A stretch of 64,000 bases of DNA from Panorpa germanica (taxonomy: Eukaryota; Arthropoda; Insecta; Mecoptera; Panorpidae), in assembly GCA_963678705.1 (NCBI GenBank), contig OY783208.1, forward strand, positions 22,222,207 through 22,286,206, read 5' to 3'. Below, in pieces: positions 13,500 to 62,065 of the stretch. The translations under genes and the position numbers were made by a program. The notes beneath the pieces were generated by a model. The model worked only from the letters and a program-made list of their open reading frames with translations. It ran no database searches and was not told the DNA's origin. The first letter of the stretch is position 1. Each line of letters begins with the position of its first letter.

Positions 13500-13912
13500 A
13501 ATGCAGGTGAAAGAGCGATAAAATATGAAGAGAAAATGAGCAGTGCTGAAAGCAAAATTGTAAAGAAAATAAAAGAGGAAAGTATAAAGAAGGGGGGGGG
13601 GGGGTAGAGTCTCGAAAAAGAGTATTTTGAAAGGAATGGAATGGTGATCGAGGAGGCAGAGAGAAGAAGAGAAGGAGGCGCAAGTGTGGAAGAGGAGCTA
13701 AGGAGAAGGGATAAGGAGATACAGCAACAGGAAAGAACGGGAAAAATCGAGAAAAGCAATTACAATAAAAGATATAAAAGGATTTGGGAAGTAATATACC
13801 TCAGTACTTAATAGAAAAAGACATAAAAAACATAAGAAGGACAGCAAGGTTTAGATTGGGAAATGAGGAAGAAGGAAACAGATACTGGGAAAAGAGTGAG
13901 GAATTTTATATA
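13500..13912 (+). mobile_element. Non-LTR retrotransposon reverse-transcriptase C-terminal fragment, decayed
   Basis: The plus strand encodes a YNKRYKRIW-type motif, followed after a frameshift by TARFRLGNEEEGNRYWEKSE. This matches the reverse-transcriptase C-terminal region of the insect LINE seen at 26.1-26.9 kb. A G homopolymer interrupts the 5' part near 13,593-13,606. The fragment stops before the cysteine motif. Confidence 0.65.
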
Positions 13913-17790: not shown

Positions 17791-17883
17791 TACAAAGCTT
17801 AAAAACTTATTACAGAAAAGTTTTTACAATATTTTTCTGTTTATATATGAATTCATTTTTTTTGTTTTTAGTATACCAGGACT

Positions 17884-18219
17884 ATGGATCCTCCATGTGA
17901 ATTTTACGATTTTGAAATAAAGGTAGAAGATGCTGCAGTAGAAGAAGATCTTGATCACCTGGAAATTTCTGAGACATTTATTTGTAACGAGTGTGTTAGA
18001 ATATTCAACACTAAAATAGAAATCAAAAGACAAATAAAGGAGCATTTTAGAAAAAAAAAATATTCTTGTACAACTTGCTCGAAAAAGTTTAGGTTATTAA
18101 GATATTTAAATGAACATAAAAAAACACATTCAGATTTAAAGTTATATCCCTGTGGTTATTGTCACAAAAACTTTAAAAGTGCACAAACTCTAAAAAATCA
18201 TCTCAAACGACACACATAA
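17884..18219 (+). CDS. Small C2H2 zinc-finger protein (111 aa)
   Basis: A likely nuclear DNA-binding protein. The ATG follows an acceptor (TTTTTTGTTTTTAG, 17,860-17,873). The N-terminus is acidic (FEIKVEDAAVEED). Finger 1 (ICNECVRIF, ending QIKEHF) is imperfect, finger 2 (YSCTTCSKKF, ending HKKTH) is complete, and finger 3 (YPCGYCHKNF, ending HLKRH) ends the protein. The DLKLYPC linker echoes the LGLKPF linkers of the 42-64 kb cluster. The upstream block TTACAGAAAAGTTTTTACA recurs before zinc-finger gene C, so this is probably an outlying family member. A hAT element begins two bases after its stop codon. Confidence 0.7.
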   Translation: MDPPCEFYDFEIKVEDAAVEEDLDHLEISETFICNECVRIFNTKIEIKRQIKEHFRKKKYSCTTCSKKFRLLRYLNEHKKTHSDLKLYPCGYCHKNFKSAQTLKNHLKRHT

Positions 18220-18220
18220 T

Positions 18221-19726
18221 CAGGGCCGTCTTTAACCTATTGGAGGCCCTGGGCATGTTAGGATAATGGGGCCCCTATGACTTTGACAGAACACTATTTT
18301 GTTAGAATAGACAAAGAAACTAGATAAACAAGGTTAAATATTTATTTTTATTAACAATCACATGAAACGAATAGATAAATGTAATACAGTCCACAAAATT
18401 AACTCTTTTAACATTTACAGATTAGTGCTTAAAAATCTATGTTATTTGAAGAGGAACCCTTCTAGATTTCAGATGGGCAAAATCGTTAATCACTTCTTCA
18501 AAATCTATGCTTTTTAGCACATCAGATTCTATGGACATCAGCGACAAATTGGTTAATCTCTCTTGAAGCATTGTACTTCTTAATTCATTTTTAATTCTTC
18601 TTAATTTGGAGAAGGAGCGTTCTCCACTGCAGTTAGTTACCATCATGCTTAAAAAGATTCTCAATGCGATTTCTACATTTGGAAATGTGTCTTCAATTTT
18701 GTTTTCTTTCAAAAGTTGATATATTTTTAATATACAATCCTTATTTTCACTGTCATCAATTTTCAAGTATTCTGTTAAATGCAAACATTCTATTTCTGAC
18801 TCTTTCTCATTAATATCTTCATAATAAAATTCAGCAAATTCTTTGCAACTTTGTCTCAACTCTTCAGAATTGAGAGTTTTCAAGCGAAAAAATAAATCAA
18901 AACGTTTACTGATATTCTTATACGAACTTAATCGCTGTTTAGACGTCGAAAAAAAATTCTCAAGGACATCCACACAATTTGTTCATGGAAACTCAAGGTA
19001 TTAAGAAGGAGGATTTGGATCCATCATACCACACTTATTTAGTACGAAAAGAATCGTCATGTTGCGAATGCCTTCTCTGTCTATATTGCGAATGGATATT
19101 TGACAAATTATTGTTTTTATGTAGAATATACGGAAGTAATAATGAAGAAGTCTTCATTTATAATAAAAAAACCTCAATGTTTTTTTAAAGGTACATTGAA
19201 AATCTTATTCGGGATGTCAAAAATTTTTTTTTGTGAAAGTTTGACCCCTTAAAATCAAAATTAACAGGTCTATCATCGCAATTTTAGATTTTTATTCTTC
19301 TTTCAAATTCTGTTTTAAGAACTTCTAAACCATCAAGCTAAAAAAATTGAACTATATTTATGCTTATAGGAAATTAAATGCTCTACAAAAAATGATGAGT
19401 GTACTACTGATGATTTTTCTTTAAAATGGGTATGTGCTTAGTATACCATTATATATTTAAATTTATCTAAGCATGCTGAAGTCGGAAAGCTTAATTTTTG
19501 GGCGAGAGTAGAATAGCTTCGCGCATTTACGAGTAAAAGCGAGTAAGTTGGTATTTTAGTCAGTAATTTAGGTTCGATTTCTTCGAATCAAATAAGTTTT
19601 TTGGTAATAAATATTGGTTATCGTTTGATGATCTGACAGGAACTTTGTATTTGATCTGAGGGGGGCCCTATCGATCGCGGGGCCCTGGGCACTTGCCCAA
19701 AGTGCCCAATGGGAAAGAGGGGTCTG
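18221..19726. mobile_element. hAT transposon, internally reduced, with 8-bp target duplication
   Basis: The left end is CAGGGCCGTCTTTAAC. The right end, read inward, is CAGACCCCTCTTTCCC, followed by matching GGGCAC/GGCCC blocks. The 8-bp direct repeat CACATAAT flanks it exactly (18,213-18,220 and 19,727-19,734), which is diagnostic for hAT insertion. At 1.5 kb it is shorter than a typical autonomous element and keeps only the end of the transposase gene. Confidence 0.9.
18437..18973 (-). pseudogene. hAT transposase C-terminal fragment
   Basis: A 178-residue frame ending with the hAT dimerisation region: NVEIALRIFLSMMVTNCSGE, then RSFSKLRRIKNELRSTM and LTNLSLMSIE. The hAT/ZMYM1-like family normally has several hundred residues more, including the BED finger and the catalytic core. 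Those are deleted here, so it is not an active transposase. Confidence 0.85.
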
Positions 19727-19973: not shown

Positions 19974-20372
19974 TCCGTATCCAAAAAACTTCCGTTAAAG
20001 CTACGTAAACGAGCTCTTACTGATGTTAATTTAAGAAAATATGCAAAGAAATTAAATATTCCTCACTTTAGAGGGGTATTTATGAGAAATAACTTACATA
20101 AAAAAAATTTATTAAATGAGACTGGTATTATAAATTTAGATGATAAGACATCAGCAGGAACACATTGGGTAGCTTACATAAAAAGAAATAAACATATTTT
20201 ATACTTTGATAGTTTTGGTAATTTAAAACCCCCAATAGAAGCAATTCAATACTTTGGTATCAATAATAATATCCAATATAACTATGATAGATTTCAAAAA
20301 TTTAATACTGTGAATTGTGGACATTTATGTTTAAATTGTTTGTATTTTAATTATGTAATTTTTAATAAATAA
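19974..20372 (+). pseudogene. Adenain-like cysteine protease of a Polinton/Maverick element
   Basis: Polinton elements carry an adenovirus-type maturation protease. The frame is open from 19,974, with the first ATG at 20,082. Counting from that Met, the active-site set is visible: His28 (GTHWVAY), Asp43 (YFDSFGN), Gln72 and Cys79 (NCGHLCL), with the Gln-Cys spacing of seven seen in adenain. The stretch upstream of the ATG also looks like protease, so the annotated Met is probably internal and the true start is lost. Polymerase, integrase and packaging ATPase genes are absent. It is the remnant of an endogenous virus-like element. Confidence 0.75.
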
Positions 20373-20457
20373 TATAATGATATAAATACATGAGTTTTAT
20401 TGTCATTTCTTATTACTATTACTAAGCTTACCGTGAAAGGTTTATTCAAAAATAATA

Positions 20458-20874
20458 ATGTCTATGACATTTACAATTAATGGAAATGAATCTATATTAA
20501 GTGCAGATATTTTTCCACCAATAGATTTGCATGATGGAATATATGAATTGGGGATAGTAGACTTTCAAACATTTAATTCCATACCAAATATTGATGACAC
20601 CAACAATAAATTTTATTATGGAGATGGTAAAGTTGTTACAATACCAGTAGGTTCATATGAATTGGAGGATATTCAAGAATATTTAAGGTTAAACATGGGT
20701 GATTCTAGAGCAATAAAACACAACAGCGAATTTAAAGAAATATCTGATAAACAAATAAAAGAAGTATTTTTAAATTTAACCGCGAATACAAACACCCTCC
20801 AAAGTGAAATAATATGTTCTGAAAAAAATAGACTTTTCAAAAAAAAATTGTATTGCTTCATTACTAAGATTTAA
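20458..20874 (+). pseudogene. Polinton/Maverick capsid-type structural protein, frameshifted
   Basis: A 138-residue frame follows the protease by 85 bp on the same strand. Its opening (PPIDLHDGIYELGIVDFQTF and NSIPNIDDTNNKFYYG) is of the kind found in arthropod Polinton virion-protein genes, probably the minor capsid protein. An A-run near 20,837-20,846 shifts the frame, and coding-like sequence continues in another frame to about 20,920, where an unrelated repeat begins. An internal part also appears to be missing. It is a broken structural gene. The exact capsid type is inference. Confidence 0.5.
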
Positions 20875-29437: not shown

Positions 29438-30590
29438 GAGTTATGTCCGCTACACTTTAAATTGATAAACTGTTTAATTAAATTTCCTTAATCTTTGCTA
29501 TTTTGGCTTTTTTGCAATATTTTCTCAATTCATAGGCTTTTTCTTAGAAATCTAGTTATTCTTTTCAATTTCTTTGATGCAGTTATGTTCGCTATGCTCT
29601 AAAATAGAAAATAACATCATTAGATTTTAAATACCTACGTAATTCTGGCTTTTATGCAAGCTTTTTTATTTTCATGGATATGTTTAAAAAAAGATTAAAA
29701 TCCTATATTATAATGTTCCAAGTGAAAGTTTATATGTTTACGCGATTCGTATAATGGCGTAATATTTGTTCCGTCTTCAATTAATTGTTAGGTTTAGTCT
29801 GCAAATATTGTCAGAAAATAATGTCAAAATACATGACTTTCTAGTTTTGTGTAATTTATAAATATTGGACTTTGTAAGGTTCTAAAAAAACCAAGAAAAC
29901 GTAAATTAGGAAACAACAATTTCATTTTCAATACAAGTTTCTTTATTTTTCGTTTTGTAAAAATGATTTTAGCAAAGGTTAGTTGGTGCGTTCTGGTAAG
30001 ACTTTAAGAGAATGAGTAAGGTGGGGGGGGGGGGGGGGTAGTAGGTGTAAACCTAGGAGGGAATTGTACATATTGTGCAACATTGTTTTATATTTTAATT
30101 TTACAATATTCTATTTCTATTAATTATTTTATTTTATGATAAACTAAATATATATTTTGTAAGCCAAATATTAAAAGTTTATTTTACATTTATTTATTGG
30201 AAATATGATATTGGGAGATGATATTGGAATACTATAATAAATCATTAAAGATCGTCACCATTTGCTGAGTAAAAAGAGTTATCTACCTTTTAGGAGCAAT
30301 TGATTAAAACTTTGATTTTAGATTTAATTATCATTCCCAGTCACTGCTTGTTAATAACAAAATTGCACATTCAATCGAACTGTCAACAGTGAGTGGAAAT
30401 ACTTCAATATACTTTTAAGCACTGCCATCTATGAAGCATATAATGAAATAGCAATACGGTTGTGTTCTCAGATAGATTAAAGTAACACATTTTCCTTTAT
30501 AGATAATGGCACTTATTATTAAAAATAGCGGTATAAAAACACTTATGGTACATACTATCAGATACATTTATCAAAAAGATATACACATCA
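29438..30590. other. Gene-free stretch
   Basis: AT-rich. It contains a short R2 end near 29,700-29,750 and a G homopolymer (about 16 G, 30,023-30,038). No coding exon was recognised. Confidence 0.4.
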
Positions 30591-42541: not shown

Positions 42542-43546
42542 ATGGAGGATTGCAAATCTCAACAAATAAAATTAGAAATTAATGTAGATACATGGTTAAA
42601 TAAACCATTGCAGAAAGACACCTTCAAAAATGAAATAACAGAGGAGCAAGATGTCGTAAAAGTAGCACAATGTGATGAAATAAAAATAGAAATCAAAGAA
42701 GAACCACGTGATTACTCGGAGGAGGACATAGCTGAGTTCGAAGTTAGAATTGAAAAAGCCATCGACCCGCTGAGCAGTAAACTATTACAAAATGAAATTA
42801 GTACAAATCTGCAGCCTTATATATGTGAACAATGTAACAAATTGTTTGACAATAAGGCAGCAATCAAGAAACATTTGCGTGTACATTCAGAAAATAAGTG
42901 TAATAAAAGGTTTGAACATCTCTCAGACTCAAAACAACATTTAGGTTTAAAACCATTTCCTTGCGATGAATGTAATAAAACCTTTAGTCAATCATCGTAT
43001 TTAAAACGACATAAAAAACGACATTTAGGTCTAAAACCATTTTCTTGTGGTGAATGTGATAAAACGTTTAGTCAATCATCACATTTAAAACGACACAAAA
43101 ATATGCATTTAGGTATAAAACCATTTTCTTGCGATGAATGTGATAAAACGTTTAGTCTATCATCTAATTTAAAACAACATAAAAATACACATTTAGTTTT
43201 AAAACCATTTTCTTGCGATGAATGTAATAAAACGTTTACACATTCCTCGCAATTAAAACTACATAAAAACGGACATTTAGGTTTAAAACCATTTTCTTGT
43301 GGTGAATGTGCTAAAACTTTTGGTTGTTTATCAGATTTAAAACAACATAAAAACACACATTTAAGTGTAAAACCGTTTTGTTGCGATGAATGTGATAAAA
43401 CATTTAGTCGTTCATCGCATTTGAAACGGCATAGAAACACACATTCAGAATTAAAACCATTTTCTTGCACTACCTGTAATAAATGTTTCTCAGTAGCTGG
43501 TTATTTAAAACAACATCAAAAAACTCATTTAGATTTAACTGATTAA
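42542..43546 (+). CDS. Zinc-finger gene A: C2H2 protein, 334 aa
   Basis: A probable nuclear sequence-specific DNA-binding protein. The ATG follows the acceptor TTTTCTTTTAG by 11 bases. The N-terminal ~90 residues are the family's acidic tail (MEDCKSQQIKLEI, then IKIEIKEEP; IKEE fits the SUMO-site consensus). Then come YICEQCNKLFDNK (finger 1), a degenerate finger 2 that has lost its first cysteine and last histidine (NKCNKRFEHLSDSKQHLG), and seven good fingers. Linkers are LGLKPF or LGIKPF rather than TGEKP. It is the shortest array of the cluster. No ZAD, BTB or KRAB domain is present. The target is unknown. Confidence 0.9.
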   Translation: MEDCKSQQIKLEINVDTWLNKPLQKDTFKNEITEEQDVVKVAQCDEIKIEIKEEPRDYSEEDIAEFEVRIEKAIDPLSSKLLQNEISTNLQPYICEQCNKLFDNKAAIKKHLRVHSENKCNKRFEHLSDSKQHLGLKPFPCDECNKTFSQSSYLKRHKKRHLGLKPFSCGECDKTFSQSSHLKRHKNMHLGIKPFSCDECDKTFSLSSNLKQHKNTHLVLKPFSCDECNKTFTHSSQLKLHKNGHLGLKPFSCGECAKTFGCLSDLKQHKNTHLSVKPFCCDECDKTFSRSSHLKRHRNTHSELKPFSCTTCNKCFSVAGYLKQHQKTHLDLTD

Positions 43547-45038: not shown

Positions 45039-46340
45039 ATGGACGCTTGCAAATCTCAACAAATGAAGCTAGAAGTTGATTTGGCTTTAAATAAACGAGT
45101 AGAAACAGCAAGTGTAAACGAAGACATCAAAATAAAAATAGAAGATGAAAGCATCGTCAAAGAAGACACGTTATGCGATGAAATAAAAACAGTAATAAAA
45201 GAAGAACTAGATGTTAGTTCATACGAAACTTCAACTTTACTACGCAAAACTGACTACATCATTGAGTTCGAAGTTTGTGTTGAAAATTGCGATGAGCCTC
45301 TGAATAATGAACAACTGCAAATTGTAGCACCGAATTCGTATATCTGTGATATATGTAACAAATTGTTTGACAACAAGCCAAACATCAAAAAACATTTGCG
45401 AAGTCATTTCACAAAAAACGTACATTCATGTTATATGTGCAATAAATTATTTGAACATTTATCCAGTTTAAAACGACATGAAAACTCACATTTAGGTTTA
45501 AAACCATTTTCTTGCGATGAATGTAATAAAACATTCAGTCGTTTATCGGATGTGAAACGACACAAAAACACACATTTAGGTTTCAAACTATTTTCCTGCG
45601 ATGAATGTAATATAATGTTTAGTCGTTTGTCAAATTTGAAACGACACAAGAACATACATTCAGGTTTAAAACCATTTTCTTGCGGAGAATGCAGTAAAAC
45701 ATTTACTTTTAAATCGGGTTTGGAACGACACAAAAACACACATATAGGTTTAAAACTATATTCTTGCGATGAATGTAATAAAACATTTAGTTGCTCATCA
45801 AGTTTGTCAGTACATACCAAGGCACATATTAGTTCAAAACGATTAACTTGTGGAGAATGTAATAAAACATTTAGCCATTCAGCAAGTTTAAAACTACATC
45901 AAATCACACATTCAGATTTGAAACCATTTTCTTGTGATCAATGTGACAAAATGTTTAATCAATTAGTGCATTTAAAACGACATAAAAACATACACTTAGG
46001 TTTAAAACCGTTTTCTTGCGATGAATGTAATAAAAGGTTTATTCAATCATCTGATTTAAAACGACACAAGAACTCGCATTTAGGTATAAAACCATATTCT
46101 TGTGACGGATGCTCCAAAACGTTTAGTCATTCATCGCATTTAAAACGACATAAAAATACACATGTAGGTGTGAAACCGTTTTCTTGTGATGTATGTAATA
46201 AAACGTTTAGTCAGTCATATACTTTAAAACTACATAAAAACGCACATTTAGGTATAAAACCATTTTCTTGCAACGAATGCATTAAAACGTTTAGTTGTTT
46301 GTCTGATTTAAAGCGACATAACAAAGTTCATTTAGATTAA
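45039..46340 (+). CDS. Zinc-finger gene B: C2H2 protein with 12 fingers, 433 aa
   Basis: The start at MDACKSQQMKLEVD is chosen because the paralogues begin at the same place; an upstream in-frame ATG (45,024) would add only MFCVI and lies next to the splice acceptor. The acidic tail contains VIKEELD and the shared FEVCVENCDEPLNNEQLQ block. Twelve C2H2 fingers follow, all with complete Cys and His pairs, from YICDICNKLF to FSCNECIKTF. The helix residues that read DNA differ from finger to finger (for example RLSDVKR, FKSGLER, QSSDLKR) while the framework is constant. Linkers are LGLKPF-like. It is the most diverged of the intact members. Confidence 0.92.
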   Translation: MDACKSQQMKLEVDLALNKRVETASVNEDIKIKIEDESIVKEDTLCDEIKTVIKEELDVSSYETSTLLRKTDYIIEFEVCVENCDEPLNNEQLQIVAPNSYICDICNKLFDNKPNIKKHLRSHFTKNVHSCYMCNKLFEHLSSLKRHENSHLGLKPFSCDECNKTFSRLSDVKRHKNTHLGFKLFSCDECNIMFSRLSNLKRHKNIHSGLKPFSCGECSKTFTFKSGLERHKNTHIGLKLYSCDECNKTFSCSSSLSVHTKAHISSKRLTCGECNKTFSHSASLKLHQITHSDLKPFSCDQCDKMFNQLVHLKRHKNIHLGLKPFSCDECNKRFIQSSDLKRHKNSHLGIKPYSCDGCSKTFSHSSHLKRHKNTHVGVKPFSCDVCNKTFSQSYTLKLHKNAHLGIKPFSCNECIKTFSCLSDLKRHNKVHLD

Positions 46341-47868: not shown

Positions 47869-49230
47869 ATGGTTGATTCCAAATCTCAACAAGTAAAACT
47901 AGAAATTGATGTACGATTAAATGAACCAGCAGAAACAGCAAATGTTAACGAAGATATCAACGTAGAAATAAAAGGGGAAGAAGTCGATAAAAAACCAACA
48001 CAATGTGATGAAGTAAAAACGGAAATTAAAGAAGAACCAAACGAAGAACAGAATACTAACTACATCATTGAGTTCGAAGTTCGTGTTGAAAATCGCGATG
48101 AACCTGTGGATAATGAACAACTACAAAATATAGCTCCGAATTCTTATATCTGTGAAGCATGTAACAAATTGTTTGACAATAAGCCAGAAATCAAAAAACA
48201 TTTGCGAATACATTCCACAAAGAAAACACATTCTTGTAATAAGTGTAATAAACTATTTCAACATTTATCCAGTTTAAAACGACATGAAAACACACATTTA
48301 GGTTTTAAACCATTTTCTTGCGATGAATGCAATAAAACGTTTAGTTGCTTATCAAGTTTAACAGTACATAAGAAGACACATTTAGGTTTAAAACCATTTT
48401 CTTGCAAAGAATGTAATAAAACGTTCAGTCGGTTATCACATTTAAAATTACATAAGAACACACATTCAGGTTTAAAACCGTTTTCTTGCGGAGAATGTGA
48501 TAAAACGTTTAGTCAATCATCGCATTTGAAACTACATAAAAATATACATTCAGGTTTCAAACCAGTTTCTTGCGACGAATGCAATAAAACGTTTAGTCGC
48601 TCATCGTACTTAAAAGTACATAAGAACACACACTCGGGTGTAAAACCATTTTCCTGCGATGAATGTGGAAAATCGTTTAGTCAATCATCGCATTTAAAAC
48701 TGCATAAAAATATTCATTCAGGATTAAAACCATTTTCTTGCGATGAATGTAATAAAACGTTCAGTCAAGCATCTCATTTAAAACTACATGAAAACACACA
48801 TTTAGGTTTAAAACCGTTTTCTTGCGATGAATGTAGTAAAACATTTAGTCATTCATATACCTTAAAACTACATAAAAACACACATCTAGGAGTAAAACTA
48901 TTTTCTTGTGATGAATGTTTTAAAACATTTAGCCAAGCGTCACATTTTAAGCAACATAGAAATAAACATTTAGGTTTGAAACCATTTTCTTGTGATGAAT
49001 GTAGTAAAACGTTTGGTCAATTGTCACATTTGAAAGAACATAAAAACACACATTTGGGTTTGAAGCCTTTTTCTTGTGACCAGTGTAATAGAACGTTTGG
49101 AAAATCTTCGCACTTGAAGCAACATAAAAACACACATTTAATTATAAAACCATTTTCTTGCGAGGATTGTATTAAAACATTTAATTGTTCATCCGATTTA
49201 AGACGACATAAAAAAATTCATTTAGATTAA
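47869..49230 (+). CDS. Zinc-finger gene C: C2H2 protein with 13 fingers, 453 aa
   Basis: The ATG follows the acceptor CTTTCTGTTTTAG by 26 bases. The tail has MVDSKSQQVKLEIDVRLNEP, EIKEEPNEEQ and FEVRVENRDEPVDNEQ. Thirteen intact fingers follow: YICEACNKLF and HSCNKCNKLF are the two family-specific leading fingers; the next eleven are FSCDECNKTF-type with varied helices (SSHLKLH, SSYLKVH, ASHFKQH). Linkers are HLGLKPF or HSGLKPF. It is the tandem twin of gene D: fingers at both ends match closely, while the middle differs by finger rearrangement. Confidence 0.93.
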   Translation: MVDSKSQQVKLEIDVRLNEPAETANVNEDINVEIKGEEVDKKPTQCDEVKTEIKEEPNEEQNTNYIIEFEVRVENRDEPVDNEQLQNIAPNSYICEACNKLFDNKPEIKKHLRIHSTKKTHSCNKCNKLFQHLSSLKRHENTHLGFKPFSCDECNKTFSCLSSLTVHKKTHLGLKPFSCKECNKTFSRLSHLKLHKNTHSGLKPFSCGECDKTFSQSSHLKLHKNIHSGFKPVSCDECNKTFSRSSYLKVHKNTHSGVKPFSCDECGKSFSQSSHLKLHKNIHSGLKPFSCDECNKTFSQASHLKLHENTHLGLKPFSCDECSKTFSHSYTLKLHKNTHLGVKLFSCDECFKTFSQASHFKQHRNKHLGLKPFSCDECSKTFGQLSHLKEHKNTHLGLKPFSCDQCNRTFGKSSHLKQHKNTHLIIKPFSCEDCIKTFNCSSDLRRHKKIHLD

Positions 49231-51452: not shown

Positions 51453-52814
51453 ATGGTTGATTCCAAATCTCAACAAGTAAAACTAGAAATTGATGTACGA
51501 TTAAATGAACCAGCAGAAACAGCAAATGTTAACGAAGATATCAACGTAGAAATAAAAGTGGAACAAGTTGATAAAAAAGCTACACATTGTGATGAAATAA
51601 AAACAGAAATTAAGAAAGAACCAAATGAAGAACAGAATACTAACTACATCATTGAGTTCGAAGTTCGTGTTGAAAATCGCGATGAACCTCTGGATAATGA
51701 ACAACTACAAAATATAGCTCCGAATTCTTATATCTGTGAAGCATGTAACAAATTGTTTGACAATAAGCCAGAAATCAAAAAACATTTGCGAATACATTCC
51801 ACAAAGAAAATACATTCTTGTAATAAGTGTAATAAACTATTTCAACATTTATCCAGTTTAAAACGACATGAAAACACACATTTAGGTTTTAAACCATTTT
51901 CTTGCAAAGAATGTGATAAAACGTTCAGTCAATTATCATATTTAAAGCAACATAAAAACACACATTCAGGTTTAAAACCATTTTCTTGCGACGTTTGTAA
52001 TAAGACGTTTAGTCATTTATCAAATTTAAAACAACATAAGAACACACATTCAGGTTTAAAACCGTTTTCTTGCGGAGAATGTGATAAAACGTTCAATCAA
52101 GCATCTCATTTAAAACTACATAAAAACTCACATTTAGGTTTTAAACCATTTTCTTGCGATGAATGTGATAAAGCGTATAGTTTACCTTGGAATTTAAAAT
52201 TACATAAAAACACACATTTAGGTTTAAAACCATTTTCTTGCAAAGAATGTAATAAAACGTTCAGTCGGTTATCATTTTTAAAATTACATAAGAACACACA
52301 TTCAGGTTTAAAACCGTTTTCTTGCGGAGAATGTGATAAAACGTTTAGTCAATCATCGCATTTGAAACTACATAAAAATATACATTCAGGTTTCAAACCA
52401 GTTTCTTGCGACGAATGCAATAAAACATTTAGTCGCTCATCGTATTTAAAAGTACATAAGAACACACACTCGGGTGTAAAACCATTTTCCTGCGATGAAT
52501 GTGGTAAATCGTTCAGTCAATCATCAAATTTAAAACAACATAAAAACAAACATTCAGGATTAAAACTATTTTCTTGTGATGAATGTAGTAAAACGTTTGG
52601 TCAATTGTCACATTTGAAAAAACATAAAAACACACATTTAGGTTTGAAGCCTTTTTCTTGTGACCAATGTAATAGAACGTTTGAAAAATCTTCGCAGTTG
52701 AAGCAACACAAAAACACACATTTAGTTATAAAACCATTTTCTTGCAAGGATTGTAGTAAAACATTTAATTGTTCATCCGATTTAAGACGACATCAAAAAA
52801 TTCATTTAGATTAA
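51453..52814 (+). CDS. Zinc-finger gene D: C2H2 protein with 13 fingers, 453 aa
   Basis: The start is set at MVDSKSQQ, matching gene C. The longer in-frame opening from 51,351 runs through the intron and its acceptor and is unlikely to be translated. The acidic tail differs from C by few residues (EIKKEPNEEQ). Fingers 1-2 and the last three or four are nearly identical to those of C. Fingers 3-7 differ and include an atypical FSCDECDKAYSLPWNLKLH. The total, thirteen, equals C despite the different order, pointing to exchange or gain and loss of finger units. A poly(A) signal candidate AATAAA lies near 52,930. Confidence 0.93.
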   Translation: MVDSKSQQVKLEIDVRLNEPAETANVNEDINVEIKVEQVDKKATHCDEIKTEIKKEPNEEQNTNYIIEFEVRVENRDEPLDNEQLQNIAPNSYICEACNKLFDNKPEIKKHLRIHSTKKIHSCNKCNKLFQHLSSLKRHENTHLGFKPFSCKECDKTFSQLSYLKQHKNTHSGLKPFSCDVCNKTFSHLSNLKQHKNTHSGLKPFSCGECDKTFNQASHLKLHKNSHLGFKPFSCDECDKAYSLPWNLKLHKNTHLGLKPFSCKECNKTFSRLSFLKLHKNTHSGLKPFSCGECDKTFSQSSHLKLHKNIHSGFKPVSCDECNKTFSRSSYLKVHKNTHSGVKPFSCDECGKSFSQSSNLKQHKNKHSGLKLFSCDECSKTFGQLSHLKKHKNTHLGLKPFSCDQCNRTFEKSSQLKQHKNTHLVIKPFSCKDCSKTFNCSSDLRRHQKIHLD

Positions 52815-53957: not shown

Positions 53958-54631
53958 ACATAAAGATATTTCAGTTTTCTTTATTTTAAATGGGTTTTGT
54001 GGTTCGAGGACGGAGTATTTCTGTGCTGTTGTATAAATAGTTTTAGCGGGATTTATGAACTTGAATATTTATACGACTGATATAAACTATATTTTATTGT
54101 AATACAATATCTTTTTTCAAAATATTTTTTAATTTATGTGCAAACCTCTCAATAAAATTGAACTTCACAAGTCCATTAACAGAGTAATTTTTATCTCTCT
54201 AATCATTAAGCCAAGAAACATATTTTTCAAATGCTTTCAATATTTGCCGTCATGTCCGTTTAATTAATTATTACTAAAATTTGTTGTTTTTATTATTAAA
54301 TAATGTTTTAAGCATAATGAAGGCTTGGCAGTTACAATTCGTAATGTTTGTGCAAATTATGGTGCAAACTGTGATTTAAATTAAGCGACTGTGAAGAAAT
54401 TAATTAAGAAATTCAAGGAAACTGGATGAGTTAGTGATCTGAGACACTTTGACCGTCGTTTAACACAAAACATCGAAGCAGTTTGTAAAAGTGATGCGAA
54501 AAGTCCAGACCGTGGTCAAGAATTGGACATATTGGATGTTCCACAATTGCGGCACAAGAGCGCATAATGCGGCATTGATTGTTCCAAGTACAGCAGTACA
54601 GCGCACGCAAAAGTTCTGGTCTCGCATGATG
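53958..54631 (+). pseudogene. Decayed transposase N-terminus, mariner/Tc-like
   Basis: The plus strand reads ATVKKLIKKFKETG, then stop, then VSDLRHFDRRLTQNIEAVCK and so on. This resembles the helix-turn-helix region before Tc/mariner-related transposases of insects. In-frame stops are frequent. A second copy is at 58,495-59,190 in the same orientation, on the other side of gene E. Confidence 0.55.
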
Positions 54632-56092: not shown

Positions 56093-58045
56093 CTAATGTA
56101 AATTACGTTTTTGATGTTTCTTTAGATTACCTGCAGTTGAGAAACATATATTACATAAACCACAAGAAAATGGTGTTGTAACTGAATGTGTGTTTTTATG
56201 TCGTTCTAATTGAGTTGATCGACTGAACGTTTTGATGCATTCATCGCAAGAAAATGGTTTTAGACCTAAATGTGTGTTTTTATGTTGTTTTAAATGAGTT
56301 GAACGACTGAATGTTTTGCTACATTCGTCACAAGAAAATGGTTTTAGACCTAAATGTGTGTTTTTATGTTGTTTTAAATGAGTTGAACGACTGAATGTTT
56401 TGCTACATTCGTCACAAGAAAATGGTTTTAGACCTAAATGTGTGTTTTTATGTCGTTTTAAATGAGTTGAACGACTGAATGTTTTGCTACATTCGTCACA
56501 AGAAAATGGTTTTAGACCTAAATGTGTGTTTTTATGTCGTTTTAAATGAGTTGAACGACTGAATGTTTTGCTACATTCGTCACAAGAAAATGGTTTTAGA
56601 CCTAAATGTGTGTTTTTATGTTGTTTTAAATAACTTGATTGACTGAATGTTTTACTACATTCGTCGCAAGAAATTGGTTTTACAACTAAATGTGTATTTT
56701 TATGTAGTTTTAATTGAATTGATTGACTAAACGTTTTACTACATTCATCTCAAGCAAATGGTTTTAGACCTAAATGTGTGTTTTTATGTTGTTTTAAATG
56801 AGTTGAACGACTGAATGTTTTGCTACATTCGTCACAAGAAAATGGTTTAAGACCTAAATGTGTGTTTTTATGTTGTTTTAAATGAGTTGAACGACTGAAT
56901 GTTTTGCTACATTCGTCACAAGAAAAACGTTTTAGACCTAAATGTGTGTTTTTATGTCGTTTTAAATGAGTTGAACGACTGAATGTTTTGCTACATTCGT
57001 CACAAGAAAATGGTTTTAGACCTAAATGTGTGTTTTTATGTTGTTTTAAATAACTTGATTGACTGAATGTTTTACTACATTCGTCGCAAGAAATTGGTTT
57101 TACAACTAAATGTGTATTTTTATGTAGTTTTAATTGAATTGATTGACTAAACGTTTTACTACATTCATCGCAAGCAAATGGTTTTAGACCTAAATGTGTG
57201 TTTTTATGTTGTTTTAAATGAGTTGAACGACTGAATGTTTTGCTACATTCGTCACAAGAAAATGGTTTTAGACCTAAATGTGTGTTTTTATGTCGTTTTA
57301 AATGAGTTGAACGACTGAATGTTTTGCTACATTCGTCACAAGAAAATGGTTTTAGACCTAAATGTGTGTTTTTATGTCGTTTTAAATGAGTTGAACGACT
57401 GAATGTTTTGCTACATTCGTCACAAGAAAATGGTTTTAGACCTAAATGTGTGTTTTTATGTTGTTTTAAATAACTTGATTGACTGAATGTTTTACTACAT
57501 TCGTCGCAAGAAATTGGTTTTACAACTAAATGTGTATTTTTATGTAGTTTTAATTGAATTGATTGACTAAACGTTTTACTACATTCATCGCAAGCAAATG
57601 GTTTTAGACCTAAATGTGTGTTTTTATGTCGTTTTAAATTTGACGAATTAGCAAATATTTTACTACATGTATTACAAGAATGTAGTTTCTTTGCTGAATG
57701 CACACGCAAATGTTTTATGATTTCTGCCTTAGAGTCCAACAATTTGTTACATACATCACAAATATAAGGCTTCAGGTTCGTATTCATTTCACTTTGAAGT
57801 TGTTGCTCTGGAACTTCCAGTTTAATAAAGTAGTCATCACGGGGAAAATGTGTAGCTTCATTTGTACTATATTCTGGTTCTTCTTTAAATTCTATTTTTA
57901 TTTCATCACATAGCGCTGCTTCTTTGACGACTCGTCCTTCTTCTATTTCTATTTTGATATCTCCGTTTAAATTTTCCGTGTCTATTGGTTCAGTTAATCC
58001 CACATCAACTTCTAGCTTTATTTGTTCGGATTTAGAATCCTCCAT
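56093..58045 (-). CDS. Zinc-finger gene E: C2H2 protein with a nonsense codon inside a homogenised array
   Basis: The start MEDSKSEQIKLEVDVGLTEP follows the acceptor TTGTTTTTAG. The acidic tail contains VVKEAAL and FKEEPEYS. The continuous frame ends at 56,750 after 431 residues and 12 fingers, because TGC of a cysteine codon (finger 13) is TGA. Without that codon the frame would stay open to TAG at 56,093 (651 codons), covering eight more finger units, the last two being unique. Fingers 3 onward repeat three types: QSIQLKLH, QSSYLKQH and RSTHLKRH/KQH. The five-finger block recurs with a period of exactly 420 bp (for instance 56,701, 57,121, 57,541). It is the only member on the minus strand. 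Either a truncated functional protein or a young pseudogene. Confidence 0.85.
56630..57600. repeat. 420-bp higher-order tandem repeat within zinc-finger gene E
   Basis: The unit is five 84-bp fingers. The block reading AACTTGATTGACTGAATGTT occurs at 56,631, 57,051 and 57,471, spaced exactly 420 bp. Copies are almost identical, which means very recent unequal exchange or gene conversion (or an assembly artefact). Confidence 0.9.
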
Positions 58046-58494: not shown

Positions 58495-59190
58495 AAAATG
58501 AAGATATTTCGGTTTACGATCTTATGAGGTTATTAATTGTGGAGGGAGTATTCATTTCTGGATGTTGAAATAGTTTTAGCGGGATTTTTGAACTTAAATA
58601 TTCTTACGCCGACTGATTTAAATTTTATTTTGTTATAATACAATATCTTTTTCCAAATTTATAATTTATGTGTAAATCTCTCAATAAACTTGAGGATTAC
58701 AAGCTCATTACCAGAGTAATTTTTTTGTCTTTTTAATCGTTAAGCCAAGAAACATGTTTTTTTTAAATATTTTCAATATTTGCCGTCCTGTCCGTTTAAT
58801 GAATTATTACTAAAATGTGTTGTATTCATTATTAAGTAATGTTTTAAGCATAATGAAGGCTTGGCAGTTACAATTCGCAACGTTTATGCAAATTAAGGCC
58901 AACACTGTGATTTAAATTAGGCGACTGTGAAGAAATTAATTAAGAAATTCAAGGAGACTGTACCGGTTAGTGATCTCAGACACTTTGACCGTCGTTTAAA
59001 ACAAAACATCGAATCAGTTTGTAAAAGTGTTGCAAAGAGTCCAGACCGTGGTCAAGAATTGGACATATTGGGTGTTCTCCAATTACGGCACAAGAGAGCA
59101 TAATGCGGCATTGAATGTTCCAAGTACAGCAGTGCCCAGTTCACAGTTCAACACTTCATAAAGTTCTGCTCTCGCATGATGTGCCCAATT
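58495..59190 (+). pseudogene. Second copy of the decayed mariner/Tc-like transposase fragment
   Basis: Collinear with 53,958-54,631 with many substitutions, e.g. ATVKKLIKKFKETVPVSDLR without the stop seen in the other copy. The two direct copies bracket gene E. Confidence 0.55.
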
Positions 59191-59237
59191 GATACCAACT
59201 AATTAGAATAAAATGTAAAACTTTTGATATGGTTGAC

Positions 59238-59703
59238 AATGGGCTTATGTCCTCATTTTTTAGTGGTCGATTTTTCAATTGTTAATTAAAATTGATGTTA
59301 ATAAATGTGTATTGGCGTGTCTATTTTATTAAATATCTAAATGTGGACGGAAATATAGCAATTAAAAATTTGAATTATAGTTTTAGCGCTAGAAATGGTC
59401 AGCCATATTTGCATGACGTGAAATGCATTTTAACGTCAGTTATTTGTTGAGTAGTTAAGTGCTGTGGTAATGTTCTGTAGCTGTTGGTAGTCAAATAATC
59501 AAGTCATATCAAAGAATAATAAGTTTTTATTTTATTTAACCCTGCTAAGGCAGACATAATATTGAAATTTTATTGTTCCTTGAAATAGCTGTTAATAATA
59601 TTTGATATTTTGATATATAAATTGAACATTTGAGGTTCTAGTAACCCACTTTATCAATATATAGTACACTTTTATAGAAATTAAGACATAGGACACAAGC
59701 CCA
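59238..59703 (+). mobile_element. MITE-1 copy with internal deletion, before gene F
   Basis: Both ends are present (GGGCTTATGTCCTCATT and AGGACACAAGCCC). About 160 bp is missing after TTTTGATATATAAA. The 3' flank (ATTTAACATTTGAAGTCCTG) is the same as that of the copy before gene G. Confidence 0.85.
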
Positions 59704-60694: not shown

Positions 60695-62065
60695 ATGGAA
60701 GATTCTAAATCACAACAAATAAAACTAGAAATTGATGTACGATCAGTAGAAACACCAAATGTAAACGAAGATATAAAAAGTGAAATAAAAGCAGATGGAA
60801 TCGACAAAAAAGCAGCGTCATATGATGAAATAAAAATAGAAATTAAAAAAGAGCCAAATGATAGTTCAGAGGAAGCTACAATTCCATCACAGGACGCTGA
60901 TTTCATTATTGAGTTTGAAGTTCGAGTTGAAAATCGTGATGATTCACTAAGTACTGGCGTACCCAAATATTATGTTTGTGAAGTATGTTACAAAATGTTT
61001 GACAATAAGTCTAAAATCACGAAACATTTGCGAGTCCATTCAGTAAAAAAAACACATTCTTGTAAAGTTTGTAATAAAATCTTTAAATACCCGTCAAAAT
61101 TAAAACGACATAAGAATACACATTTAGGTATAAAACCGTTTTCTTGCGATGAATGTAATAAAACATTCAGCTATTTATCTAATTTGAAACAACATAAAAA
61201 CACACATTTAGGTATAAAACCATTTTCTTGCGACGTATGTAGTAAATCATTTAGTCGTTCTTCTGATTTAAAACGACATAAAAAAACGCATTTAAGTTTA
61301 AAATCATTTTCTTGCGATGAATGTTATAAAACGTTCAGACATTTATCTAATTTAAAAAATCATAAAATAACGCACTTACATTCAAATTCATTTTCTTGCG
61401 ATGAATGTAATAAAACGTTCAATCGCTCATCCCAGTTAGAACGACATAAAAACAAACATTTAAATTTTAAATTATATTCTTGCGATGAATGTAATAAAAC
61501 ATTTAGGTATTTATCTACCTTAAAACTACACAAAAATACACATTTAATTTCAAAACCATTTCCATGCGACGAGTGTAGTAAAACGTTTAGTCAATTATCA
61601 ACTTTGAAACATCATAAAAACACACATTTAGCATTAAATCCATTTTCTTGTAATGAATGTAGTAAAACGTTTAGTCTTTCATCTGATTTAAAACGACATA
61701 AAAACACACATTTAATTGTAAAACCATTTTCTTGCGAAACATGTAACAAAACGTTTAGTCATGTGTCTAATTTAAAACAACATGAAGAATTGCATTTAGG
61801 CTTGAGGCCATTTTCTTGCAACGAATGTCATAAAACGTTTAGGCATTCATCAACCTTAAAACAACATAAAAATACACATTTAGTTTTGAAGCCGTTTTCT
61901 TGTAATGAATGTGATAAGACGTTTAGTCGTTCAACGCATTTAAAATTACATAAAAACACACATTTAGCATTAAAACCGTTTTCTTGCACTGTATGCAGTA
62001 AGTCTTTCACGTGTGCTAATAATTTAAAACGGCATCAAAAAACACATATAAATTTAAGTATCTAG
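60695..62065 (+). CDS. Zinc-finger gene F: C2H2 protein with 13 fingers, 456 aa
   Basis: The start MEDSKSQQIKLEIDV agrees with the paralogues. An in-frame ATG at 60,611 lies before the acceptor (TTTCTGTTTTTAG, about 60,656-60,669) and is intronic. The tail has EIKKEPNDSSEE and FEVRVENRDDSLS. Thirteen complete fingers run from YVCEVCYKMFDNKSKI to FSCTVCSKSFTCANNL, with helices such as YLSNLKQ, RSSDLKR, RSSQLER and HVSNLKQ. Linkers are more varied than in the other genes (LSLKSF, LHSNSF, LNFKLY, LALNPF), suggesting relaxed constraint on the linker. The last finger resembles that of A (TCNKCFSVAGYLKQH). Confidence 0.93.
   Translation: MEDSKSQQIKLEIDVRSVETPNVNEDIKSEIKADGIDKKAASYDEIKIEIKKEPNDSSEEATIPSQDADFIIEFEVRVENRDDSLSTGVPKYYVCEVCYKMFDNKSKITKHLRVHSVKKTHSCKVCNKIFKYPSKLKRHKNTHLGIKPFSCDECNKTFSYLSNLKQHKNTHLGIKPFSCDVCSKSFSRSSDLKRHKKTHLSLKSFSCDECYKTFRHLSNLKNHKITHLHSNSFSCDECNKTFNRSSQLERHKNKHLNFKLYSCDECNKTFRYLSTLKLHKNTHLISKPFPCDECSKTFSQLSTLKHHKNTHLALNPFSCNECSKTFSLSSDLKRHKNTHLIVKPFSCETCNKTFSHVSNLKQHEELHLGLRPFSCNECHKTFRHSSTLKQHKNTHLVLKPFSCNECDKTFSRSTHLKLHKNTHLALKPFSCTVCSKSFTCANNLKRHQKTHINLSI

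Follow-up and report, generated by a model that had tools for sequence, protein, structure and literature searches.

Introduction

KRAB-ZNF genes are arranged in clusters and show turnover of their finger arrays as well as variable contact residues. In PRDM9 the finger unit has a length of 84 bp. Among insects, the APEZ / ZF271-like expansions of Hemiptera comprise, in the part of the Oncopeltus paper used here, numerous C2H2 fingers in tandem, joined by a short linker and encoded in clusters of 4-8 genes that result from recent duplication, include disrupted members and lack KRAB (PMC6444547). The same part of that paper raises the question of what partners the hemipteran ZF271 proteins use. 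The ZAD-ZNF proteins of Drosophila (Kipferl, Nicknack) form a large, dynamic C2H2 family that the sections used of two papers link to heterochromatin (PMC9531945, PMC7655104). Within single arrays, duplications of C2H2 blocks can span up to nine domains and often occur mid-array, a six-finger block being shown for a human protein in the portion used of Bjorklund et al. 2006 (PMC1553488). Clustered expansions lacking KRAB, duplication of multi-finger blocks and finger minisatellites are therefore already known. Here we describe a C2H2 gene of Panorpa germanica, termed Za copy 1, that lies in a 64,000-nucleotide stretch of contig OY783208.1 (C5:22,222,207-22,286,206, in the following called the window) within a genome of 464 Mb in 249 contigs. 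Its array is a mosaic of sequences from sibling genes, contains three near-identical five-finger blocks and is interrupted by a stop codon.

The locus resembles the APEZ / ZF271-like expansions, as far as the excerpted source describes them, in its tandem fingers, short linkers, recent gene clusters and disrupted members as well as in the absence of KRAB or a known effector domain. The finger arrays are the sole domain reported there, whereas here a conserved tail with several Ψ-K-x-E motifs is found. The clustered hemipteran genes vary in exon number and size, while the genes described here have single coding frames (PMC6444547, same excerpts). With mammalian PRDM9, in the partial accounts used, the gene shares a coding minisatellite of near-identical finger units whose number changes by recombination: here, 84-bp coding units differ in number and order between close copies. 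Unlike PRDM9, it has neither PR/SET nor KRAB and is present in six tandem copies instead of as one gene. The duplication of several domains at once is like that described for C2H2 proteins (PMC1553488, in part), but involves three five-finger blocks and is accompanied by exchange between adjoining genes. As in the ZAD-ZNF family, to the extent covered by the excerpts used, we find a large and evolutionarily dynamic insect C2H2 family; it differs from that family by having no ZAD domain and from the KRAB-ZNF clusters by having no KRAB domain. Neither the tail nor a cassette with one varying array beside two near-frozen genes was described among the matches listed from open-licence PubMed Central.

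Results and Discussion

Three near-identical five-finger blocks

Za copy 1 occupies 58,045-56,093 of the minus strand and is encoded in a single frame of 650 codons, counting an internal TGA, with the ATG at 58,045 and the final TAG at 56,095-56,093. Of its 20 finger units 19 are complete and one is broken; they follow the pattern C-x2-C-x12-H-x3-5-H with seven-residue linkers. Pfam assigns zf-C2H2 to the open reading frame (ORF) with an E-value of 2.5e-60, and the solved chains that score best against the fingers are ZNF568, a molecule named Aart and PRDM9. The fingers are ordinary C2H2 fingers. KRAB, ZAD (zf-AD) and PR/SET were not found by Pfam at E ≤ 1e-3 for the ORF and E ≤ 1 for the six N-terminal tails. 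The tail of Za copy 1 gave no hit to any Pfam family at E ≤ 1. In gene order, a 95-residue acidic tail with five Ψ-K-x-E motifs (57,761-58,045) is followed by the N-terminal fingers F01-F02 (57,593-57,760), which are found in all six copies, by block 1 (F03-F07, 57,173-57,592, types A B C C D), block 2 (F08-F12, 56,753-57,172, types A B C* D D) and block 3 (F13-F17, 56,333-56,752, with the TGA as first codon), by one further unit and by the tail fingers F19-F20 (56,093-56,248). The last finger is of the H-x5-H instead of the H-x3-H type. We rejected decay past the stop as its origin, since the feature is common to all six copies.

An initial sequence-only reading had claimed three near-identical five-finger blocks of 420 bp in one gene, and this was borne out. 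Blocks 1 and 2 differ at 4 bases per 420 nt, blocks 1 and 3 at 2 and blocks 2 and 3 at 6, corresponding to DNA identities of 98.6-99.5%. The 16 core units (F03-F18) comprise four types plus a few changes. At a lag of five units the mean difference is 3.3 bases per 84-nt unit, compared to 6.9-9.2 at the other lags between 1 and 8. Shuffling the order of 17 units equalled this signal in 84 out of 20,000 cases, which supports the period only moderately because most units are alike anyway. The longest internal near-repeat (≤ 2 mismatches) extends over 161 aa when the stop is read through and over 152 aa before it. The largest value among the 120 homologues listed, a part of the 2,245 found at E ≤ 1e-3 from 7,981 scored candidates, was 85 aa.

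Elsewhere on the contig, a 22-finger relative (C5:21,219,816-21,222,016) possesses its own five-finger block repeat with a 136-aa near-repeat at lag 140. Two further relatives, L043 and L046, carry five serial fingers of the LLHHLK type.

Six cassettes with one varying array

Za copy 1 opens a series of six cassettes, each ~10 kb long and arranged in tandem, that ends at position 22,338,403 of the contig. Each cassette holds three zinc-finger genes: Za lies on the minus strand, and the other two, Zb with 456 aa and Zg with 288 aa, are plus-strand genes; in cassette 1 Zb has 13 fingers and lies at 60,695-62,065. The numbers of Za fingers in copies 1-6 are 20, 10, 10, 13, 10 and 10, such that the siblings of copy 1 (copies 2-6) have 10-13 fingers and 369-454 aa. 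In comparison, Zb is 97.1-98.9% identical between copies (15 pairs) and Zg 99.5-100% (10 pairs). Za, unlike the adjoining genes of the cassette, is thus changing its finger array quickly. Core units differ at no less than 13 of 84 bases in Zb and 21 of 84 in Zg (one copy of each) and, being more divergent, are less prone to slip. This difference in slippage might by itself account for the variation being confined to Za.

The locus presents finger-array turnover caught in action, with one array gene changing in number, order and integrity. The two near-invariant genes per cassette provide internal controls, and with six such cassettes one can count directly how fast and along which path the arrays evolve.

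Mosaic origin of Za copy 1

Copy 1 is a mosaic of sibling sequences. Over the 800 bp of its 5' flank, no base differs from copy 3 (798 compared) or from copy 6 (799 compared). Fingers F08-F11, i.e. the first 336 nt of block 2, match block 2 of copy 4, which lies 31 kb away, at 336 out of 336 positions. Among these are the four bases by which block 2 stands apart from both block 1 and block 3. Between copies 1 and 4 the N-terminal parts show a divergence of 3.8%; at this rate, zero differences over 336 bases have a probability of 2e-6. For the tail fingers copy 5 is nearest, with 9 differences in 156 bases compared to 13-24 for the others, while further 3' the nearest copies become 2, 4 and 6. 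An adjacent pair of changes in F10 and a silent change in F11 had been candidates for private mutations of block 2. This was rejected: copy 4 has them, and they were therefore gained by exchange or descent.

Recent unequal exchange among the copies would explain the repeat best. Two blocks of the same kind are already present in copy 4. In the simplest history, unequal exchange would have joined a two-block array of the copy-4 kind to an array with one block and a copy-5-like tail, though the order of events is our reconstruction. The near-alike finger units of Za would let cassette copies pair out of register, and unequal crossing-over together with conversion between the copies could then have produced the 20-finger, three-block array from sequences of the copy-4 and copy-5 kinds. 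A single C-to-A change would afterwards have turned the first codon of block 3 into TGA. Within the gene itself recent plain block duplication suffices. The repeat had been called homogenised from the start; the term holds for exchange between gene copies, as seen from the 336-nt identity with copy 4, and is not needed for the blocks of copy 1 among themselves.

Such a structure raises the question of an artefact, either a consensus error at base 56,750 or a mis-join of near-identical copies or haplotypes that would have added the third block. None of the other five arrays is as repetitive as that of copy 1, the stop falls exactly on a block junction, and on the plus strand the change is G to T, which belongs to a damage-prone class. 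In addition, relatives on contigs C84 and C210 (108 and 119 kb) could be alternative haplotypes. A single mis-join would, however, not give a block 2 that equals copy 4 exactly together with flanks that switch between other copies at several points. The blocks also carry distinguishing bases, and a contig of 24.8 Mb suggests that long reads were used. We thus regard an artefact as unlikely. Exchange between cassettes that built the array, followed by a near-neutral stop in a family of regulators, is the account that we consider probable as a whole.

The stop codon

The stop results from a TGC to TGA change at the first cysteine of F13 (56,752-56,750). Its position and the open frame beyond it for eight finger units agree with the sequence-only reading, with the specification that the eight units are the remainder of the broken finger and seven complete ones. 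Past the TGA the frame (56,093-56,749: rest of F13, F14-F20 and TAG) stays open for 218 residues, none of which is an in-frame Met. Ahead of it (56,753-58,045) 431 residues are encoded, comprising the N-terminal tail and 12 complete fingers. The stop is absent from Za copies 2-6. By open frame and finger pattern, 3 of the 18 genes in the six cassettes are damaged: Za copy 1 by the stop, Zb copy 5 (C5:22,324,186-22,325,556) by loss of Cys and His ligands and Zg copy 4 (C5:22,317,213-22,318,022) by a frameshift in the N-terminal tail. Disruption was also seen in 12 of 35 relatives.

Since a length of 12 fingers is normal here and relatives are frequently disrupted, the stop probably represents a truncation or null of an ordinary, recent kind. 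It would cut the product to 12 whole fingers, or leave none if the mRNA were degraded. Selection might instead have kept the stop because it trims an over-expanded array to the usual finger number. The 12 fingers and 431 aa indeed fall within the range of the siblings, and the cut leaves no half finger. The two tail fingers lost in copy 1 are, however, kept by all five siblings, disruptions are common in the family, and 4-8 neutral changes yield at least one stop with a probability of 0.22-0.38. A functional stop therefore appears improbable to us. Still harder to credit is read-through of the TGA to a 650-residue, 20-finger protein, as the open frame beyond the stop might suggest: this frame is accounted for by the recency of the stop, and the TGA is followed by G (TGA-GAT), while C after the stop is favoured in known insect read-through. 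The stop most likely arose recently and is nearly neutral, in a family that evolves by birth and death.

Predicted DNA target

By the textbook code, RSTHLK[RQ] helices suggest G-rich triplets (GGG-type for RSTHLKR), and an AGGGGGGGGANANAA block is predicted. From the identity of the fingers, the sequence-only reading had proposed a tandemly repeated DNA target. On an alternative account of the array, the repeated fingers would have been selected to bind G-rich satellite or minisatellite DNA. In the window, predicted single-block sites are in excess (14 at ≤ 3 mismatches compared to 3.9 expected; 0 of 100 shuffles gave as many). The GRGGN motif is preferred by Kipferl, a fly ZAD zinc-finger protein, according to the part used of the source (PMC9531945). 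The matches in the window are, however, scattered tracts rich in purines, of which two coincide with long poly-G runs. The predicted two-block site had a single match at ≤ 3 mismatches in 464 Mb (reversed control: 0), in a search that would overlook a satellite absent from the assembly and would fail if the site were wrongly predicted. The search for a matching satellite thus gave no support to a tandem target, none is in sight for the Za fingers, and recent duplication explains their identity. We consider such a target very unlikely.

Long poly-G runs occur at 13,592-13,604 and 30,023-30,038 of the window, which has a G+C content of 29%.

The N-terminal tail and the wider family

The family would probably encode DNA-binding regulators or repressors whose fingers read DNA, and the tail, through its conserved SUMO-consensus lysines, would recruit putative SUMO-dependent partners. 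The SUMO consensus Ψ-K-x-E is present at five fixed columns that are kept in 31-48 of 50 related tails. In the six tails of the cassettes 24 motifs were counted in 573 residues, compared to 2.3 expected. At least 150 matches to the tail were scored, 143 of them on one contig.

The motif density was measured on six tails that are related by descent. Ψ-K-x-E is also enriched 4.8-fold over shuffles in the N-terminal tails of arthropod zinc-finger proteins (24 of 26 tails) and 4.5-fold in those of vertebrates (63 of 63 tails), both groups being assigned from homologue names. Among the five lysine columns, one does not exceed the average conservation (0.64 vs 0.72), and lysine columns outside the motifs reach a conservation of 0.56-0.96. 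Enrichment alone as a special property of this family was therefore rejected, being general in zinc-finger tails, although the density is higher here. Outside the family only a weak likeness to the tail was found. The flea Ctenocephalides felis has a protein of 274 aa (P0122, "zinc finger protein 525-like") with four Ψ-K-x-E motifs in its tail; taken alone, this tail is not significantly similar (29% over 56 residues, E-value 0.13, no phmmer match).

A more far-reaching picture would be a supercluster of at least 150 genes in which a tail with 4-5 SUMO-acceptor lysines serves as effector in place of KRAB or ZAD. Za would be a hypervariable "reader" beside two near-frozen partners, its finger number and order being reset by exchange much as in PRDM9. 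Stops at block borders would act as length switches, reversible because adjoining blocks and copies can rewrite them. Because the flea protein has a similar motif-rich tail, it is less clear that the tail is confined to this lineage, and this further lowers the little credence that we assign to the picture. The conserved SUMO-consensus tail offers a testable answer on the partners of expansions without KRAB.

A short ORF at 17,872-18,219 encodes two C2H2 fingers and a tail carrying an IKVE motif.

Other features of the window

Six related zinc-finger genes in the window have single coding frames, five of them on the plus strand. Plus-strand features lie at 42,542-43,546, 45,039-46,340, 47,869-49,230 and 51,453-52,814. 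Two ORFs at 19,974-20,874, which we take to resemble Maverick/Polinton genes, gave no Pfam match at E ≤ 1e-3. A hAT transposase dimerisation region is found at 18,437-18,982 (Pfam E-value 4e-10). Za copy 1 is flanked on both sides by a direct repeat of ~590 bp that is 87% identical (54,017-54,597 and 58,554-59,133). A dispersed repeat at 59,237-59,622 and elsewhere is present more than 10 times in the window, in full or in part.
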